A stretch of DNA of 64,000 nucleotides from Fistulifera solaris (lineage: Eukaryota > Bacillariophyta > Bacillariophyceae > Naviculales > Stauroneidaceae). Every line of letters starts with the position of its first letter. Position 1 is the stretch's first letter. Position numbers and translations under genes: made by a program. The stretch lies in contig AP026127.1 of assembly GCA_030295235.1 (NCBI GenBank), forward strand, positions 622,501 to 686,500, given 5' to 3'. Below the pieces are notes generated by a model. That model made no database searches. It was not told the DNA's origin and saw only the letters and a list, made by a program, of their open reading frames with translations. Below, piece after piece: positions 4,055-58,637 of the stretch.

Positions 4055-5746
4055 ATGGCCGTTGAAGTCATCATTGCCATCGACATCGGAAGCAGCAGCA
4101 TACGATGTTCTGCATACAGAGAACTCAATATCATAGCGTCATCCTTTAATACTACCAGTTCTGTCAATACTGTCTCTGGAATGATCAATATTCAATCCAC
4201 CGGTGCGAAGACTCTGCTGGATCTGGTAGAGGAATGTTTGGATGAAACACTCGAGAAACTGGAGTACATGGATGAGACCGTGCAGGTTGTATCCGTTGGA
4301 TTTGCATGCTTTGTCATGAACTTGATAGGAACTGATAAAAATGGCAATATCATCGGATCAGAGGCGACCATGAGTTACGCCTGCGGCTCAGATGAAGTGG
4401 CAAACGAAGTTGACGCTCTGAAAAGGTAATATTGCTCGGGGTTTTCATTTGCTCTTGTTCTGTTGAATTATCGTTCTCAGTTTAGCTACGTTGGATTTTC
4501 CAAGGGAACTAGGAGAAGAAAAAAGCACTGGAGCTCTACAAACGAACCGGTGCACCGCTACACTCCCGCTTACGCGATAGCGCAACTCCGGGCCTTCTAT
4601 AAGTCAAATTCAGATAGTGTTTCAAAAGTCAGCCAGTGGAAATCAATATGCAGCCTACTACTGGATCGATGGACGGCTAGAGACGATACCCCGATATCCT
4701 ATTCGGAGGCTAGTTGGTGCGGACTTCTCAATTATGGAACGTGCGATTACGATGATCTGGCTTTGGACTTGCTTCCTGATGCTTGCACAAACGCTTTACC
4801 AAAACTAGCAGACTTCGATGAAGTCCCATTTCTCAACGAAGGGATATCACAACGGACTTCTTACTGGGAGCGTTGGCCGTTACTACGTGGATCGAGACTG
4901 TTTTTAGGCCTTGGAGATGGTGCTTGTGCCAACATTGGTAGTAAATGCTCTGTCCCTAATCGTATAGCTTGCACGGTTGGAACATCTGCTGCGGCTCGCG
5001 TTTGTTTGCCCTGTCCCATCGGACTTTCCGAAAGTCTCAATTTTGAAGCTGGATTGTTTTGCTACCGAATCGATCGTTCGCATATACTTCTTGGTGGTGC
5101 TTTGAACGACGGCGGAAATGCGGTTGAATGGATTCGGCAACTGCTGAATTTGCAGACTGATGAGAGTTTTGATGAATGCTTGAAAGCGGTCTCCTTGCTG
5201 ACGGAGAGTGACTGTAATAAGGGCTCGTCAATAGGGACCCCCACATTAATACCTTTTTTGAGCGGAGAAAGGAGCACTGGTTTCCGTACAAGGGCAACTG
5301 GTGCGATGATTGATCTCACGCATGCCACCACCCCAGCGCACATGCTCAAAAGTGTTCTCGAAGGTGTCACCTTACGTTTAAACGCGATTGTGGCGCGGAT
5401 ATGCCAAACCTCTAAGTCCCTTCATCAAAGTACGGCCTCTATCTTAGTTGTCAGTGGTAAGGCACTGGAAGTCAACGACATATGGCGTCAAATGTTAGCG
5501 AATTGTTCCGGGATCAAGGTTGTTTTTGACAAGGCCACTCAAGAAGGAACCAGCCGCGGCGTCGCAGTTCTTATTACAAGAGCAATACAGCAGAGTAGAG
5601 ATAGAGATGCGAGATTATATCTTCCGGGAGAGACCATTTCCAACGCATTGATAGAAGAACCCGTCGATGCTTTGAGAGGGTATTGGAAACACATTTCCAA
5701 CCGACAAGAGAAGTTGCTTTATGCTATATCAGACATGTACGATTAA
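4055..5746 (+). CDS. FGGY-family carbohydrate kinase (gluconokinase/xylulokinase-like), frame-broken twice
   Basis: The ATG at 4055 opens the FGGY N-domain (IIAIDIGSSSIRCSAY, phosphate-binding). Exon 1 ends at 4425; the intron 4426-4480 (55 nt, GTAATA..TCTCAG) is phase 2. The C-domain is intact: GLGDGACANIGSKC, then IACTVGTSAAARV (adenosine/phosphate motifs), LGGALNDGGNAVEW and FLSGERSTGF, ending at 5746. Between them the conserved peptide ELYKRTGAPLHS-AYAIAQLR is split over three frames. One A too many in the A6 run at 4519-4524 and one C too many in the CCC at 4565-4567 explain both shifts. With those removed the protein is about 544 aa, normal for the family. Such kinases phosphorylate sugars such as gluconate, ribulose or xylulose using ATP; the substrate is undetermined. 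No targeting leader is seen, so it is probably cytosolic. Confidence 0.8.
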
Positions 5747-5783: not shown

Positions 5784-6999
5784 CTATGAACTTAATAGGG
5801 CAGGTTCCAGTGTACCTTCCTCCGCTGCCTGTCGTAGCTTCCCCAAAGCCGCATGACATAGTCTTCTGCAGTATTCGGCTGAAACCTGCATACGCTTTCC
5901 GATCTCGACAAAGCTCATGGACTCACCCCACCTGCCGCCAGCTGGAATTTCTGACGCGGTGTAAGTGGATGATGTCCCGAAAATGTTTTTTTCGGCTTCA
6001 CTTAGATAATTTCTTTTTAGAGGGAGGCGCGTACCGCTCTTCATTGAGCCCGTACCTCCAGCTCAGTGCTTCAATTTCGCGTGGACCTAAGAATCTCCCA
6101 AGAGCCTGCTTTAGCTGCTCTTTATCAGCCACGGTCAGTGACTGGGTGTCTGGAAAGCTTCCGAAATCCGAATCGAGATCCTTGCCTTTCTGCATCCACG
6201 TCTCGAAGGATACAACGCCAGCCCTTCTTCTGCGATTGACCTTCATTGCAGTTTCAAGCTGCTTCTCGCTGACGCCGGCAGTTTCCGCGAGCATTTTTGC
6301 CGACTGTGCCTCCTTCCATGCGCTGCTACTCTCAAGGGAGATGAAACTGTCTCCATTGATATCTAAACCGAGCGTCTTGGCCGCTCGCGTCACCTTTCGA
6401 ACGGCAGCTGAGACGTGCTCGGGAACCCTTACGATATCATCTCGCTCAGCTATACACCGAAAAATCGCAGCTCTGATCCAGTACATAGCATAGGTGGAGA
6501 ATTTACCTCCTATTTCAGGGTCCCAGCGGTCTACAGCTCTGGCCAGACCGATGGCACCTTCCTGCACTAAATCCTCATGAGAAAGAGACTGAAGCTTTTT
6601 CTTTCTGTTTCCCATAATCTCATTCACTGAAAAGTAAACCAGGCCCATATTTCTTGTCACTAGCTGTTCTCGCGCCAAGTACCCACGGTTCTCAATTTCC
6701 TGCATCTTCTCCAGATCATATCCAAGTGCTCGAGAAAGCTCAAGCCGCGACACTTGAAGCTTCGGTGATTTCATTGCTAATTCTTTTTCCTTCGATTTTA
6801 AAAGACGCGCTTCGACTGCTTGTTTGAGTAGCTCAGCTTGGTCTTCCGGCGATAACCGCTCCTGCCGTAATGCATACATAGAGGAGGAAAATCTTCGGAT
6901 CGTTCTTGGTTGCATCGTCGTAAAACCGGATACCGTCACTCCGTTAACGCAGAGCATTGCGCATACTGCTATCAATCTTTTTCTTGAAGGGAACGCCAT
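5784..6999 (-). CDS. plastid RNA polymerase sigma-70 factor (sigma 1)
   Basis: Exon 1 is 6999-6035 and exon 2 is 5931-5784; the 103-nt intron 5932-6034 (GTACGC..GGCAG) joins in phase 2 and restores region 4 as LSWRYGLNEER-WGESMSFVEIGKR. The product is 370 aa. The leader has a signal-peptide core (LIAVCAMLCVNGVTVSG) followed by F and a basic stretch, as in bipartite plastid targeting. Region 1.2/2 is clear: RNMGLVYFSVNEIMGNR, LSHEDLVQEGAIGLARAVDR, FSTYAMYWIRAAIFR. Region 3 follows (IVRVPEHVS), and region 4.2 is a helix-turn-helix (FVEIGKRMQVSAEYCRRLCHAALGKLR). Sigma factors direct the plastid-encoded polymerase to -35/-10 promoters. A CRE-like box lies ~155 bp upstream. Confidence 0.9.
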
Positions 7000-50755: not shown

Positions 50756-50764
50756 ACTATGAAG
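50756..50764 (+). repeat. target-site duplication, left (ACTATGAAG)
   Basis: A 9-bp direct repeat identical to 56612-56620, immediately flanking the Mutator-like element (one extra G at 50765 in a G-run). A length of 9 bp is diagnostic of Mutator-superfamily insertion. Confidence 0.9.
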
Positions 50765-50765
50765 G

Positions 50766-50895
50766 GGGAGACTTCCGTTAGGTCTCCAACCAGGGTGAAC
50801 CTCTTCCGATAGCTCTCCCGTTAGGAGAGACGTTAACTGACTACATTCAACTTTACAGTAGAGTACGCGCCATTGGATGTGGTACTAATTACTTA
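50766..50895 (+). repeat. left terminal inverted repeat, 130 bp
   Basis: Reads GGGAGACTTCCGTTAGGTCT at the outer end and GGTACTAATTACTTA at the inner end. It matches the reverse complement of 56482-56611 base for base. It contains internal hairpins (CTCTCC-CGTTA-GGAGAG; GAGAC-N8-GTCTC). A second short inverted match (TCTACTTAGG) lies ~25-35 bp further in. Confidence 0.95.
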
Positions 50896-51065
50896 AAGGC
50901 CTTCCATCCATCATTAGTTCTACTTAGGTCACGCACAATAACCGCACAATCGTTCGCGTTGTGCGTTTGTTCCGCTCCGACTGCCGACAAGATGATCAGA
51001 ACGCTGCATTCCTTATTGTCATAGTTGCCCTTCCGTTCCTACTGTTGCTCTTTTACAACATTAAC

Positions 51066-52968
51066 ATGTCGATCATTGAAACGAAGGAGGCGGCGATCAT
51101 TCGTCACGATTATGCAAAAATATGGGGCACTTCCTCCAACCGGTCCGTATGATTTTGAAAAGTTTCTCTATGACAAACCGATCCCTGAGGATGATCACGA
51201 GGAGCTTCTCCGCAGCATCGCTTTTGTGTACGATCGAAAGCTCTTACGAGATGTCAGCAAGCACGGAGAAAGCCCTTGCTACGTGTGCACTTGCTGCAAA
51301 ACGTTCTCACTTAAGTTCAAGGAAGAAAACGGCGAACTTCGATTGCTACACGACCATCCTAGTACTAACTTCAGGCACAGTTTGTTTTGCACTCCAACAA
51401 ACGACCTCCCAAAGGACTGCCGCAGAAAATCAATGATAGTGCAGAACATTCCTGCTGTTCAAGACTTCTTCAAAACATGCTTCCAGGCACCAAACTTCGA
51501 CAGTCATGCTACTCGCAAGAATCTCAACGCCGTCCTCAGGAAAGAGGGTTTCGACATCGAAGTTGGCCCGACAATGCATTCAAATCTCAAGAAACACTTC
51601 CGTGAGGTCTACCGAAAGGATTTGTTGATGTACAATGAGCTGTTGGCCCAGTATCTTCGGAAATATGTCGAGCTAAATCCAAATGCCTCCGTCAATTTAG
51701 AAACTGACCAGAACTCATGCTTTTTTCGGTCAACTGTGTTCATTGAGAATGCCGGCGCACTTCTTTAGAAATGCCTGCATTCCTGCAATCTTTTAGACGG
51801 AACACACATCCGTATACCCGAACACGATGGAATTGGAGTCCCGATCATAGGGGTCGATGGAAATGGAAGTAACATTCCACTTGGTTTTGGGTTGATTCCC
51901 TCGGAAAACAAGCAAGGGATGATATATATCCTTCTCATGATGTATCAAGCTGGGTTCAATTTCGAAGAGTTTCCAGTATTCACTGACCGAGGACACATTC
52001 TCGCCGCTGTCCGAGCGTTGGCAGAACATTATGGACTGGTTGTTTCCGTGAAGTATTGCTTGATTCATATTCTTCAAACATTTACCATCTATTCAATATC
52101 AATCAACGATCGCTGAGAGGGCAGAGCGGTCGCTTGGTTTATGCGCGAGATGCAAAGCTCCAGATGTTAACGCCTTCTTGGATGCTGCGAAGAAGCTTGT
52201 CAAAGCGCTTCCACAAATTGAAGAAAACGAAACTCTTAGTACCGGTGCGCGAATTGTTATCTATGTTCTTGGGACAATTCATCCTACTCATTGGACTGTG
52301 TTTGGAAATACACCGAGTCAACATGAATCTATGTGGGAGCCCCTATATTTTACCTATCTAGCTGAAGTGAATGGCTTCACAGAGATAAGTGGAGACGTCG
52401 ACGAATGGAGGTGGTTGCTCAACGATCACGTGCCAGTTGGAAACAAGTTCCCTTTATATGGTTTCTGTTCAACAAATCATGTCGAATCGGCCCAGCAGTG
52501 GCTTCTACATCATGAAGTGAGGACTAATACCCCTCCACTAGCCATTTCTAACTTTTTGATGGCGGCTGCCGAATCTCTTCGACAATTTCGAGATGAAATA
52601 ACAACCAAATCTGCTAGGTTCCTCACCATATACTTTCGAAGCTTGCAAGATACAGGCAATGAAGATCTAGATTTTGTAATAGAGGATGCTGAAGGATGCC
52701 CGATGGCAGTTTGAAATTCAAATTGTACGCTGAAAAGCACAAGAAGACGGAGTATGTTACTTATGAACCCACGAGCACTCCGTCCCTGTACTGCTCCTGC
52801 AGTAGAACAGCGATGCGGGAAATCTACTGCGGCCACATCAACCTTGTTTCACGTACAAGATCCTCAACTTGGCCCTCAATCCCACCCTCTGTGTTTTCGC
52901 AATTCTACGAAGAGTTTGGAAAAGTTCCGACAAGTGGTGATCGTCAGCTTCCTTACAGAGTTTCTTAA
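51066..52968 (+). CDS. MULE transposase (DDE + SWIM), several one-base shifts
   Basis: The ATG at 51066 (SIIETKEAAIIRHDYAK) leads into an N-terminal region with a possible zinc-binding segment (SPCYVCTCCKTFSLKFKE). DDE core: first Asp in LDGTHIRIPEHDGIG (51796-51798); then VPIIGVDGNGSNIPLGFGLI; second Asp in FPVFTDRGH (51985-51987); YCLIH, the C..H box typical of MULEs (52057-52068); and the catalytic Glu in STNHVESAQQ (52484-52486). The SWIM finger YCSCSRTAMREIYCGHI (C-x-C...C-x-H) lies at ~52788-52844. The frame changes near 51116, 51755, 51792, 52070, 52150 and 52710; AAAAA, TTTT and TTT runs explain several. About 630 aa when joined. It would cut and reinsert the element. Confidence 0.85.
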
Positions 52969-53091
52969 CAACTATCCAGCGACTTGACGTCCCGGGATTT
53001 GGGGATATCAAGCTTGCTTATCAATCAGAAAACATTTATCCATCACCAACTTACACTGACAAGCTTAACTCGGGGAACAGAATAATCAGTA

Positions 53092-56000
53092 ATGGTGAAC
53101 CCGGGACCACGTAAGTCAAAGAAAAAGAAGCAATCGGCGCTGGAATCAGCACGAATGACAAAGGAGTATGAGCCAAGTTCAAAGAACAAGCTCAGTCGAA
53201 ATAACGATGCAATAGCAGAAGCGATTGCCGCCCGATGGTCTGTTTGATTTTGGGACCAAACCAAAGGCGGAACACATGCAACAGCTAGAATCAACTCTTG
53301 GACGAACGTGAGACGGCAAGCCCTTACCTCGGCACTGCTTTCACTGCAGATCACCGAATCACACAATTCGACAGTGTCTGGACTACCTCAAAGATGATCG
53401 AAGGTACATGGATCCTGCATTACTTGAAACTGGCGCAATTCTGGTCAACCATTTCCCAACATGCGTCATTGACATGGATGCAGGAATTACTTCTGAAGAT
53501 TTGGACAACGATGATACCTCCGGGAGGACATGGCCTTCACAATATTGACAAGATTGGCTTAGTAGAAGACTCTGATGCAGCCAATGCCATTGTCCAGTCA
53601 CGGATTTTAAAGCTTACTGGAGAAGACGCTGCAGAAATTCACGCTGAAGACGACAACGAAAATAACTATCTTCTGGATATGGACCTTGCTCCGTCAGGTA
53701 GTAACCGAGATATTGTAGTAATTATTCGTGACAAGGATTACACGGAAAGAAGAAGTCACGAACAAGAATTGACCATGGTTGATGATGTCGAGGTAGGCAT
53801 CCATGACGATTCCCGTCTGAACAGTGCACACTCGGGTCATCTGTCGACAATTCTAGAGGATGAAGATGTGGAACCAAGCACCGCACATAATGCTTTTGCC
53901 TCAAGTCCCGCAACAACAGAATATTCAGTAAATGAAATGCCAACAACTAGAACAAAGAGGAGATCCAAACAAGTAACGAATTTAAAAGCGCAGAAGGCAA
54001 GTCCATCTACCGCGCAAAGTCATCGATATTGAAGACAGCGACCGCATCCAGACCGAATTTGAAACCACCGACCACAACAGCTTGTGCTTCCAGTCCAGCA
54101 ACAACAGATTTTTCATTAGTCAAAATGGCAACGAGAAAGAGGAAAACGGCCGAAACAGCCACCAAATCAAAAAGCTGAAGGAACAAGTCCCGCCACAACT
54201 GATTCGTCAATCTTTGAGAGGCCGACCATGAAGAGTCAAAATCTGAAGCCACCACCTGATATCAGAGCTCATGCCTTGACTATCGAGTCTTCAATGAATG
54301 AGAATACAACACAAAAAAGGAAAAGATCGAAACTGACAGCAAATTCCAGAGCCAAAGGCCCGACTCATGCCCGTAAAAAGAAGTTGAAACCGCCACCGAT
54401 TGCAGAAGCAAAAGCAGGAAGTCCCGCCACAGCAGTTTCTTCCATAGTTGAGATGCCAACTATGAAGAGGGGTAATCTGAGAGCACTGCCAAGATCTCAT
54501 TCGAAACAGTCCAACAACCGAAGTATCACGATTCCTGAAGATATGATTATAAAGATACCGAAGACAGAACCCACTAATGCAAGTCCCGCCACGTCTGCTA
54601 GTGACGATTCATCACATGTATTTAAAAGGCGATTAGACATCCAAAAGAAGAATGCAAGTCCCGCCAAATCCGGTAATCTCAGTGACGATTCGTCGCATTT
54701 CCTGAAAATGCCGGCTAGATCTGCGAAGAAAGAACTTGGCACAAAATGAAGCTCTCAAGTTCATTTTCAGTGGGTATTCCGAAAACCAGAAGAACTCGTA
54801 GAGCTATAACAAGTCCCGCTACTGCCACTAGTGGGACCTCATCACAATTCTTGAGAACACCCTTCGACCTGAGACGTAAGATTGTAGATCCCAGAAATGA
54901 AAATCAATTTTCATTACGCCGACAACAAGTAAGGCAAATTGGAGTAGCCCCTTTGCAACCCCCAGTCATTACTGATGAACCATCAAAGATCGTATCCTAT
55001 TTTTACGACACAGCTTATCCATTTGTGGGAACCATTGAGCAATTAAATTGTTTGGTTCAAGAACACGAGTTTGATATTCCAGAATCATTTCACGGAAACG
55101 GAAACAAATGATTTAACGATGAAAAGAAGGGCTTCAACCCGAAAACGCAAGGCAGCAAACCAGCGAGGACTTGTGAGTGAGAACAATATTGCAATCCACG
55201 TGCGCGGAATACTCTTGCAGAGACAGCAAAAGGAAAGAAGTGGAATAGAATCATTTATCACTGTAGGGACAAGAAAGAATGGAAACGATCTGATTTACAA
55301 CAAAGAAGATGCCAGGGGATCTCTTCGGTCACTCCTTTTTGCAATCCAGTGCAAGGGCGTTGATAAAGGTCGCGGAGTCGTCCACGACCTGAAGAGGGAA
55401 AGAAGCATCATATCAAGGTGCTAAGTGGTGCCACGGCATCCATAACCAGTGAATGCCTTGAAATTATGAACTCGCAATGTTATTTCAATGACGATTGTGA
55501 ACAGTTTCCTTGAAAGCATAACAAGCAAGACCGTAACGGATGAGGGAGTTATTGCACACCCGTCGTATGTCATGAGTAATCTGTGGGATTCCGCCAACCA
55601 AAATATTAAGAGAGAGGGTAGACTGCAGCTTAGTTCAGCGTTTGTGGCATTGAATTCTATGACAAAATCGAACAATTTGGGCATTCATTTATTCCCTATG
55701 TGCAAGGAGAGGCACTGGTGGTTGATGGTGGTTGATGCCGATAATCGAGTTATTTATTCGCTCGACTCCCTCGAAGATCCGGACGATCACTACTCTAATG
55801 CTGTCTGGCTTTCAGGTTTATTTAAATTCGCGCGGTGAGGCAGCAATTAGAATGCGCGTCAACAAGCGAGCAGCAGGAATCAACATTACCCGATTTCGCT
55901 CCGTGGGAATACCAAGAAATGCGTCTTCCCAATAAACTATTGCAACATGATGGCCATAGTTGCGGACCATATGTATGTTTTTATGCGGCGACAATTCTGA

Positions 56001-56119
56001 AACATGGTCGACGTGCCCTCAATGAGAGGACATGGTTCCTTGACTCTATTTCGGAGATTGGAGTCGGAGATGATCTCCGACCTTTTGTATTTGATGTTAT
56101 GTTTCAATTGGCTGAATGA
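53092..56119 (+). CDS. transposon-borne Ulp1/C48 cysteine protease with long basic Ser/Pro-rich N-terminus, frame-broken
   Basis: The ATG at 53092 starts a Lys-rich region (VNPGPRKSKKKKQSALES). Over ~2.4 kb follows a charged, repetitive part with a recurring ASPAT-like motif (coding AAGTCCCGCCA near 54184, 54418, 54581, 54655 and 54810). The C-terminal domain is C48: LGIHLFPMCKERHWWLMVVD (catalytic His, 55713-55715), IYSLDSLEDPDD (Asp, 55764-55766) and LLQHDGHSCGPYVCFYA (Gln 55943-55945, Cys 55961-55963). All four active-site residues are kept. Ulp1-type enzymes cleave SUMO/NEDD8-like modifiers; here the enzyme may de-modify host or transposase protein. Five or so frame changes occur (for example near 53240, 54030, 54750, 55100 and 55830). 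Whether it is one gene or two is inferred. Confidence 0.75.
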
Positions 56120-56236
56120 CACGTATAGAGTAATGTGTGATATTAATCAACCAAGTCTAGTTTGAAACTGAAATTGTGTAGATTGGGTTTTGATTATTTA
56201 CACGAAGTAGTTTTCGACGAAAGCCTTGATCGGTGG

Positions 56237-56375
56237 AAGGTCACGTAGGCTGGGTTTTTCTTTATTGGAAGGTCGCTCGCTGCATCAGGGTCACGTAGGC
56301 TGGTTTTTCTTTATTGACAATTGAGAGCGGTCGCTCGCTGACTTTTTCTTTATCAAGAGCGGTCGCGCTCGCTGA
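56237..56375. repeat. short direct duplications in the right subterminal region of the MULE
   Basis: GGTCACGTAGGCTGG followed by a T-rich CTTTATTG occurs twice (near 56237 and 56288), and GAGCGGTCGC(GCTC)GCTGAC about three times. MULE subterminal repeats often bind transposase; that function is inferred. Confidence 0.6.
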
Positions 56376-56481
56376 CTATTGTTTATTGAGGATTTGGTTA
56401 TCTTAGAGGGGTGATTCATGAATCATCCGGGACTGTCATTCATAAGGCTTTGTTACTTTATCGAGCAACCTAAGTAGATTC

Positions 56482-56611
56482 TAAGTAATTAGTACCACAT
56501 CCAATGGCGCGTACTCTACTGTAAAGTTGAATGTAGTCAGTTAACGTCTCTCCTAACGGGAGAGCTATCGGAAGAGGTTCACCCTGGTTGGAGACCTAAC
56601 GGAAGTCTCCC
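56482..56611 (-). repeat. right terminal inverted repeat, 130 bp
   Basis: Exact inverted copy of 50766-50895, ending ..CGGAAGTCTCCC at 56611 directly before the target duplication. Confidence 0.95.
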
Positions 56612-56620
56612 ACTATGAAG
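56612..56620 (+). repeat. target-site duplication, right (ACTATGAAG)
   Basis: Identical to 50756-50764; it marks the insertion point, about 210 bp upstream of the first SGNH-like gene. Confidence 0.9.
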
Positions 56621-56828: not shown

Positions 56829-58637
56829 ATGTCGCCATCTTTGTCTCTTTGCAAAGTGGCGCTTGTGGCCCTTTTCCTCTCTTTTCTGCCTAGCTGCACT
56901 TCTCGGGCAACTTGCATTTGACTCCGAGGCTTTGGGAGTCCAGTCACCGGGAACGCTGAGCTCACAAAAAAGATATTACAACATTTGTGAAATACTTGAT
57001 AATCAATCTCCCGCGTCTTTATGGGCCCAGAATCTAAAACGTATCTTACGTGCGAGCCAAAGCCCCCTTGATGTGGATTATCAACTGCAGATTCCGACAG
57101 CCCAAGTACTGAAAGTGATTACTCCCAGGCTACATAGTGGCTTAAAATCAACTCCTCGTGACTGGCAAGCTCTGGAAAATGTGATCGAGACAACTAATCG
57201 AAGACTGGCTTATTTGAATGCAAAGAAGGAAGGTCATTTGATTGAAGAAGCCCGTCCTTTAAAGATCCTGGTTTTGGGTGGGTCTGTTACGAAGGGAGTC
57301 AACTGTAAGACTGGTATTAAGGATTACCATGACGTTGAATGCAGTTGGGTGGTCCGGCTTGAAACATTGCTCAATAACTTGGCCGGTGATCGGGTGGTGG
57401 ACGTGCACTTGGCAGCGGTGGGTGGAACGAATTCGGCTACTGCGCAAGCCATGTTAGAGTATGATCTTTTACCAGAAAAGATGAGAGAGCCTGATATCAT
57501 AATTAATGCCTATGCAACCAATGATATGCACATTTTGACGCTTCAGGAAGCTACGAGTCAAAATATCTCACTGCAAGAGAAAATCTTTGGGATGGCGCAG
57601 AATTTCACACGCACTGCGCTCCAGCAATGCACAGAGGAAGGAAAGACACCCTTACTTCTTTGGCTTGATGACTATTTGGGGAATGAACAAAGAGAAATAC
57701 TCGCTACTTCGGACTTTATTCAAAGCCTGCAAGTACTTGCGGGCTATTACGGATTTGGACTCATGTCCTATGCCGATACCGTGCGTGATCTTGTTTACGG
57801 TTCCACTGGCGAGCGATCTTTTCACCGCCCGGATGGTATAAAAACGGTCCCGAGATGAAACGAGAAATCCATCCACCGTACCCCATGCATATCGCGGTGT
57901 CGTACATTGTCGCCTACACCTTTTTGCAACTCGCGTCGAATCACTGCGGCTTGAAATCATGGAAAATTACTTCATGGGAGAATAATCTCGATTACTTCGA
58001 TGCGCCGATTCCAGATTTCCTTGACACAAAAGGAAGCATGCCTACTTTGGATTCGCCACCACTGCCTCGACCAAAAGGACTCCCTCCTTTCTTGACCAGC
58101 GATCTCAAGTTGGACGATATTTCGAAGTTGTGGCGCGAAGCGGCGCCGACACAGTGTGAAGCGGAAAAGGCGAACCGGGTTCGTTGTCCAGTGGGCTGGG
58201 TCAGTGGTTTTCGGCCGGATTTAAAGACAAATAACACCATGAATTACTTTGCGCCATATATTCGGGAGCCATTCGAATGGGAATGGCGGAACGACAAAGG
58301 GAAATTCGGATGGCTACCAACTCTTTCAAGTGGCGCAAAGATGGCTTTTGACTTTCCTTTGGAGCAGGAGATCCATCGCATAGTGTTATTCTACATGAAG
58401 AGCTACGGGGCAACATGGGAAAGGTCAAAGTCTCGTTTGCATGTCTACCTTGATGACGATAAAAGGGACGTCCCGTCTCTCGAAGTTTCTTTATCTGGGT
58501 TTCACGACAAAGAAACGAGTGAAGTATACGTGGAGGAGGTGCAGCTACCACGCGGAGCGTCGAGGAGGCTTCAAATGACGGTTGAGCATGCAGCTGGGAA
58601 GACATTCAAGCTGATGGGATTCGCGATTTGCAGCTGA
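56829..58637 (+). CDS. SGNH-hydrolase-like type II membrane protein, paralogue 1, two homopolymer shifts
   Basis: First of three tandem paralogues. The ATG at 56829 (SPSLSLCKVALVA) leads into a hydrophobic anchor once one C of a CCC near 56869 is dropped (SSLFCLAALLGQLAFDSEA, aligned with the anchors of the other copies). The conserved body: CEILDNQSPASLWAQNLKRI, the nucleophile block ILVLGGSVTKGV, VVDVHLAAVGGTNSATAQAM, and block III IINAYATNDMHI. Near 57820 one T is missing relative to the sister copies, which keep one more base there; the rest (EIHPPYPMHIAVSYI with the catalytic-type His) continues to 58637. A C-terminal beta-rich domain ends KTFKLMGFAICS. Corrected length ~602 aa. The role is inferred as hydrolase or acyltransferase on surface glycans. 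Confidence 0.75.

Follow-up and report, generated by a model that had tools for sequence, protein, structure and literature searches.

A Mutator-like transposon family of the diatom Fistulifera solaris carries a transposase and a Ulp1-type protease domain in the same orientation

Introduction

Ulp1 domains have been reported in Mutator elements of hydra, lancelet, Arabidopsis, maize, rice and melon (Bao et al. 2010, PMC2836005). The VANDAL-related Kaonashi (KI/KIU) Mutator-like elements (MULEs) of Arabidopsis combine a Mutator transposase with a ULP-like domain, but are described as lacking terminal inverted repeats (TIRs) and as carrying the ULP domain in reverse orientation relative to mudrA (PMC2528002). 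According to PMC13317346, Vandals that carry KIU are able to make related elements hypomethylated. ULP1 MULEs with the ULP domain in direct as well as in reverse orientation are described for melon and rice, in melon the ULP domain is also found in TIR-MULEs, and ULP1-MULEs of grapevine are described in the same source (PMC2528002). Ginger1 has its transposase in line with a C-terminal Ulp1 or OTU domain, but this transposase is of the Gypsy-integrase type and not that of a MULE (PMC2836005). In diatoms, the MULE-Diatoms (group 37) are listed with one ORF, a SWIM finger and TIRs of 123-124 bp, with no target-site duplication (TSD) and no further motif (Dupeyron et al. 2019, PMC6446971); the terms 'ulp', 'protease', 'peptidase' and 'C48' are absent from the main text of that paper.

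Here we analyse an element of Fistulifera solaris, a diatom for which 42 homoeologous chromosome pairs have been reported (PMC5935921). Its TIRs of about 130 nt, and a transposase and a C48 (Ulp1-like) domain that both lie on the plus strand, set it apart from Kaonashi as described in PMC2528002: neither the absence of TIRs nor the reversed ULP was found. It shares with group 37 the diatom host, a similar TIR length and, by motif, a SWIM-type finger, but has a C48 domain, a CCHC zinc knuckle motif and 9-bp TSDs, none of which is listed for that group; this contrast is one of descriptions (PMC6446971). The comparison is likewise by description with the ULP1-MULEs of melon, rice and grapevine, which have plant hosts (PMC2528002), and with the Mutator elements of hydra and lancelet, which have Ulp1 too and are known from Repbase reports cited in PMC2836005, in animal hosts. 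A preliminary description of this DNA proposed a candidate for an undescribed system, which goes too far, since Ulp1-bearing Mutator elements had already been reported from plants, hydra and lancelet (PMC2836005). What is new here is a diatom MULE with a C48 domain in the same orientation; the coupling of transposase and ULP is itself known. Among the open-licence papers that our searches listed, we saw none that describes a ULP domain in a MULE of a stramenopile.

Results

The window is the whole stretch of DNA analysed, 64,000 nucleotides of contig AP026127.1 (positions 622,501 to 686,500), and lies on C7, one of the 61 contigs (51.7 Mb) of the genome searched; coordinates are those of the window unless a contig or locus is named. 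The Mutator-type element occupies 50765-56611, with ends confirmed by TIRs, TSD and comparison of copies, although its left end may be 50766, where the window copy has one extra G relative to the other copies. An inverted-repeat search of the window reported arms of 133 nt, 99% complementary, at 50763-50895 and 56482-56614. We place the left TIR at 50765-50895 (plus strand; 0 variable columns among 20 full copies) and the right TIR at 56482-56611 (minus strand); 130 nt of the arms are identical across copies. The 9-bp duplication ACTATGAAG is present at 50756-50764 and again at 56612-56620. The element thus has the long TIRs and the 8-11 bp TSD of a MULE, and the earlier reading that one TIR pair encloses both coding regions is borne out.

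The genome was searched with the 22-nt terminus, allowing up to 3 mismatches and with the reversed pattern as control, and the counts are lower bounds. At least 47 ends were found, all with 0 mismatches, and the control gave 0, so that the recurrence of the terminus is beyond chance. This answers the question, left by the preliminary description, of how many copies share the TIR: there are at least 24 insertions, namely 20 full-length (about 5.85 kb), three internally deleted (about 3.2 kb) and one that is one-ended, on C16. TSDs of 9-10 bp flank 22 of the 23 two-ended copies (19 of the 20 that were scored, plus 3 read by eye), although the one at L018, a run of ten Ts, is hardly informative. 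The sole two-ended copy without a target duplication, L015 (C18:848116-853966), possibly reflects recombination between copies. When matches were assigned by coordinates, the C48 domain lay inside all 24 insertions found and the transposase core in 21, the contrary of an arrangement with the C48 gene outside the TIRs of all other copies, against which the preliminary description had set its claim.

The three short derivatives (L013, L014 and L022, on C1, C43 and C8) have one common breakpoint, where position 405 is joined to 3061 in majority coordinates. What remains in them is part of the linker and the C48 domain; the catalytic core and the two zinc motifs are gone. Because their TSDs differ from one another, the deletion predates their movement, which presumably took place in trans. 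By local frames the shared join is in frame, an outcome with a chance of one in three. No insertion is present in the homoeologous stretch on C8 (L054), where the target occurs once in a diverged form; its right flank aligns at 77% and its left flank poorly near the junction. Outside CpG, only 11 of 2833 body positions vary among the 20 full copies. Altogether, this looks like a well-bounded, young, recently mobile, multi-copy family of TIR-type MULEs. Beside the insertion, three related genes stand in a row (window 56863-57858, C7:681774 and C7:684616), with homoeologous counterparts at C8:558824, 561251 and 564040.

The motifs LDGTHI, TDRGH, YCLIH and STNHVES and the C-x-C...C-x-H finger named in the preliminary description are all present, in that order and on the plus strand, as are all the features that follow. 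The transposase coding stretch likely runs from an ATG at 51066 to the zinc knuckle (51066-53377), in a frame that is broken in the window copy; we infer the start codon from the sequence and from a sister element on C2. The catalytic core (51790-52068) contains LLDGTHI at 51790, TDRGH at 51982 and YCLIH at 52054. With a query piece that is the window's own translation (100% at C7:674269-674613), the Pfam MULE domain PF10551 was matched at E 2.9e-4 and 21.6 bits, under its cut-off of 27.6; the C2 sister scored 25.5 bits, and in other runs 27.5, or 27.8 with neighbours in frame. We assign the element to the MULEs because this weak match is joined by the motifs, the TIRs, the TSDs and the C2 sister. 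STNHVES (52469-52489) holds the presumed catalytic Glu. It is followed by a SWIM-type zinc finger motif, CSC...CGH (52792-52836), identified by motif; the piece 52696-52968 around it had no Pfam match, and related proteins do match. The CCHC zinc knuckle CFHCRSPNHTIRQC (53336-53377) is likewise called by motif, the match to Pfam zf-CCHC being at E 0.27 and 11.8 bits (cut-off 20.8). A long linker follows, with approximate limits 53378-55430, in which seven SPAT/SPAK repeats span 53904-54870 (none on the reverse strand).

The C48 domain (55440-56119, start approximate) was described beforehand as the C-terminal part, and the Pfam search agrees: PF02902 (Peptidase_C48) is matched with 32.3 bits by the majority piece and with 33.5 bits by the unaltered piece of copy L028, above the cut-off of 20.7. 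Alignment with the sister elements and the host ULPs places the catalytic residues His at 55713, Asp at 55764, Gln at 55943 and Cys at 55961. The best PDB match to the domain was SENP2 (E 0.0097), and the transposase core had no PDB match at E <= 10. Scans of the IMG/VR viral_contigs with the transposase core and the L028 C48 domain gave no confirmed relative.

None of the 20 full copies is open throughout. To locate the breaks, 36 anchor peptides were placed, with up to 2 substitutions allowed, and the 35 junctions between them were scored in every full copy. At least one copy is open at each of 31 junctions; the other four, which no copy bridges, lie near 1028, 1306-1401, 2054-2238 and 4479-4676 in majority coordinates. 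Of the 35, the window copy is open at 20 and the best copy, L027, at 21. Frame breaks interrupt the coding stretch in the window copy, and no clean boundary between transposase and C48 is visible, so the two separate genes of the preliminary description are unconfirmed. Our preferred reading is a single ORF of about 1,700 codons, as opposed to two genes, introns or frameshifting. If it is right, the product could be a polyprotein of about 1,700 residues, comprising transposase, linker and C48, that the C48 domain cleaves itself, rather than removing SUMO from host proteins; viral proteases of clan CE cut polyproteins apart. The lack of a clear gene boundary argues for this, as do the frame of L027, which runs for 420 open codons across the zinc knuckle and on into the linker, and the open frames of L020 and L026 that bridge the late linker. 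So does the distribution of the seven SPAT/SPAK repeats over two frames of the majority sequence, so that at least one apparent break must be spurious. However, the junctions at 2054-2238 and 4479-4676 are among those open in no copy, so that there may be two genes, and no cleavage site was recognised in the sequence. We regard self-cleavage as rather doubtful, and a protease that acts on a SUMO-type modifier remains our preferred reading.

The differences between copies are tied to CpG. Ninety indel sites distinguish the full copies, and 76 of them lie within 3 nt of a CpG in any copy (random expectation 30.4, with a maximum of 45 in 2000 placements); 11 of the remaining 14 are at homopolymers. 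Counting only CpG of the majority sequence puts 75 of the 90 indel sites near one, where 30.2 are expected at random and 500 placements gave at most 42; for substitution sites the figure is 57 of 61 (random 18.1). Nine other dinucleotides gave no comparable excess. The next were GC for indels (48/90, random 29.9) and AC for substitutions (39/61, random 23.4), as would be expected of neighbours of CpG or, for GC, of overlap with CG runs. In the window copy, 20 of 22 difference groups are near CpG. CpG is not depleted in the element (observed/expected 0.95), and deamination does not produce indels. The frame breaks are probably mostly base-calling errors at methylated CpG, in what we take to be a nanopore assembly, because the clustering of indels at CpG is the pattern that miscalling of methylated bases in nanopore reads would give. 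Such miscalls explain the pattern better than programmed frameshifts or introns do. In a nanopore benchmark, about 70% of consensus errors fell in Dcm motifs, which made up about 0.4% of the sequence (PMC6591954).

The breaks could instead be real, the family being dead and mobilised in trans by an intact copy missing from the assembly. That all 20 full copies are broken, four junctions in every one of them, would fit such a family, as would the movement in trans of the three derivatives with their common breakpoint and different TSDs. This is, however, at odds with the concentration of indel and substitution sites within 3 nt of majority CpG, and with two controls from the same genome. A host tandem duplication of 979 bp with 57 CpG is 100% identical, although it is a single example that may be a duplicate made in assembly; and 35 of 52 HSP70 matches have no internal stop, although the 17 that do, which may include introns and decayed or odd copies, point the other way. 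We consider a dead family quite improbable and retain miscalling at methylated CpG as the explanation of the breaks.

The TIRs are exempt from these errors. None of their 12 CpG is variable, compared to 119 of 267 in the body (Fisher p 0.0015, both TIRs counted); the 12 are not independent, because the two TIRs are copies of each other. With context-specific rates, the probability of finding none is 0.0002 for all 12 and 0.023 for the six of one TIR. If the ends are taken as the outer 300 and 245 nt, limits chosen after seeing the data, 3 of 26 CpG are variable there compared to 116 of 253 in the rest. Because the CpG-linked errors fill the body and are absent from the TIRs, the body is probably CpG-methylated and the TIRs unmethylated. 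The genome has 11 matches to DNA methylases. Our results suggest that this map of CpG-linked errors is the most interesting lead of the analysis. A far-reaching version of it would be an anti-silencing transposon, in which the C48 protein would prevent CpG methylation of the TIRs and promoter of its own element while the body is methylated, a de-modifying counterpart, of stramenopile origin, of plant VANC/KIU; read from the sequence as it is, we hold this to be a long shot.

Protein searches of the genome revealed two more loci with both genes together, on C46 (L044) and C2 (L045). Their inverted arms are, for L044, three abutting pieces (1774-2011 and 5828-6056, about 235 nt) and, for L045, 243 nt at 100%. 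L044 is flanked on both sides by GAAAAAACCG, as read by eye; no TSD was seen at L045. The gene order, transposase and then C48, is identical in the two sisters and the window family, and their frames are likewise broken. Compared with the window family, the transposase pieces are 28-51% (L044) and 29-53% (L045) identical in protein and the C48 pieces of both 28-36%, ranges from which a minimum length of 20 residues excludes three matches to the window family (12 aa at 58%, 17 aa at 53%, and 10 aa on the other strand at 60%). All three families retain the His, Asp, Gln and Cys of the C48 domain. The coupling of transposase and C48 looks old and kept, because three families that have diverged to 28-53% identity hold the same pair; to this extent the earlier suggestion of a very old association is supported, by three divergent families in one genome. 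Two further loci were recorded. L046 (C18:126744-127181) is a decayed C48 remnant related to the element proteases, with no transposase match in the stretch. L049 (C17:490000-499999) is MULE-like, with PF10551 at 23.9 bits, below cut-off, a SWIM finger above cut-off and inverted repeats of 33 nt; searches of the genome gave no C48 match in this stretch.

The host has C48 (ULP) loci in three pairs, C40/C41, C34/C35 and C21/C22. These were considered as the source of the element protease, and were not recovered: with the element C48 as query at E <= 1, the sisters were reported and none of the host loci. A C48 tree of 10 rows also sets the element proteases apart from the three host pairs, weakly (70/87, with long-branch warnings), its input having been joined from pieces across breaks, with one row 29% filled. 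Of the two, the search appears to be the better evidence that the element proteases are separate. Capture of the C48 stretch from a host gene, in the style of Pack-MULEs, as a fragment of no use to the element is very unlikely: capture of gene pieces, ULP pieces included, is described as common in MULEs (PMC2528002, PMC13317346), but here the same pair recurs in three families of low identity piece by piece, the catalytic residues are retained, and the element C48 finds its sisters and no host locus.

Finally, two homoeologous long open frames, L047:2092-4788 on C38 (899 aa) and L048:2357-4606 on C39 (750 aa), are 28-30% identical to the element transposase and have a SWIM finger above cut-off. 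In both, TSQGA replaces TDRGH, the motif with the second catalytic Asp; L048 also has an altered Glu motif. No inverted repeat pair bounding them was seen. The pair appears to be a domesticated MULE transposase, the diatom counterpart of FAR1/FHY3.

Discussion

The reading that we favour, with a probability of roughly 0.6, is that of a young, mobile MULE whose C48 domain is active, under selection and probably de-SUMOylating, and whose frame breaks are probable base-calling errors caused by CpG methylation. The transposase, with its DDE core and its SWIM-type and CCHC motifs, would act at the TIRs, and the element would move by the usual MULE route. The C48 domain, with its His, Asp, Gln and Cys, would be an active cysteine protease maintained by selection; its most likely substrates would be the transposase or the chromatin proteins at the element, from which it would strip SUMO or a similar modifier, and this removal would help transposition or expression. 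A use of de-SUMOylation for escape from host control, raised in the preliminary description, is conjectural. Rad60-SLD (PF11976) was tried as a test for a SUMO gene and set aside; its 60 matches probably include ubiquitin, so it is not diagnostic.

These results carry a warning, namely that transposon frame breaks in long-read assemblies can be methylation artefacts. That three diatom families only 28-53% alike hold the same pair argues that the pairing is either very old or repeatedly selected, and SUMO-type conjugation may limit MULEs widely. A young multi-copy family in a culturable alga makes the role of the ULP for a MULE experimentally accessible.
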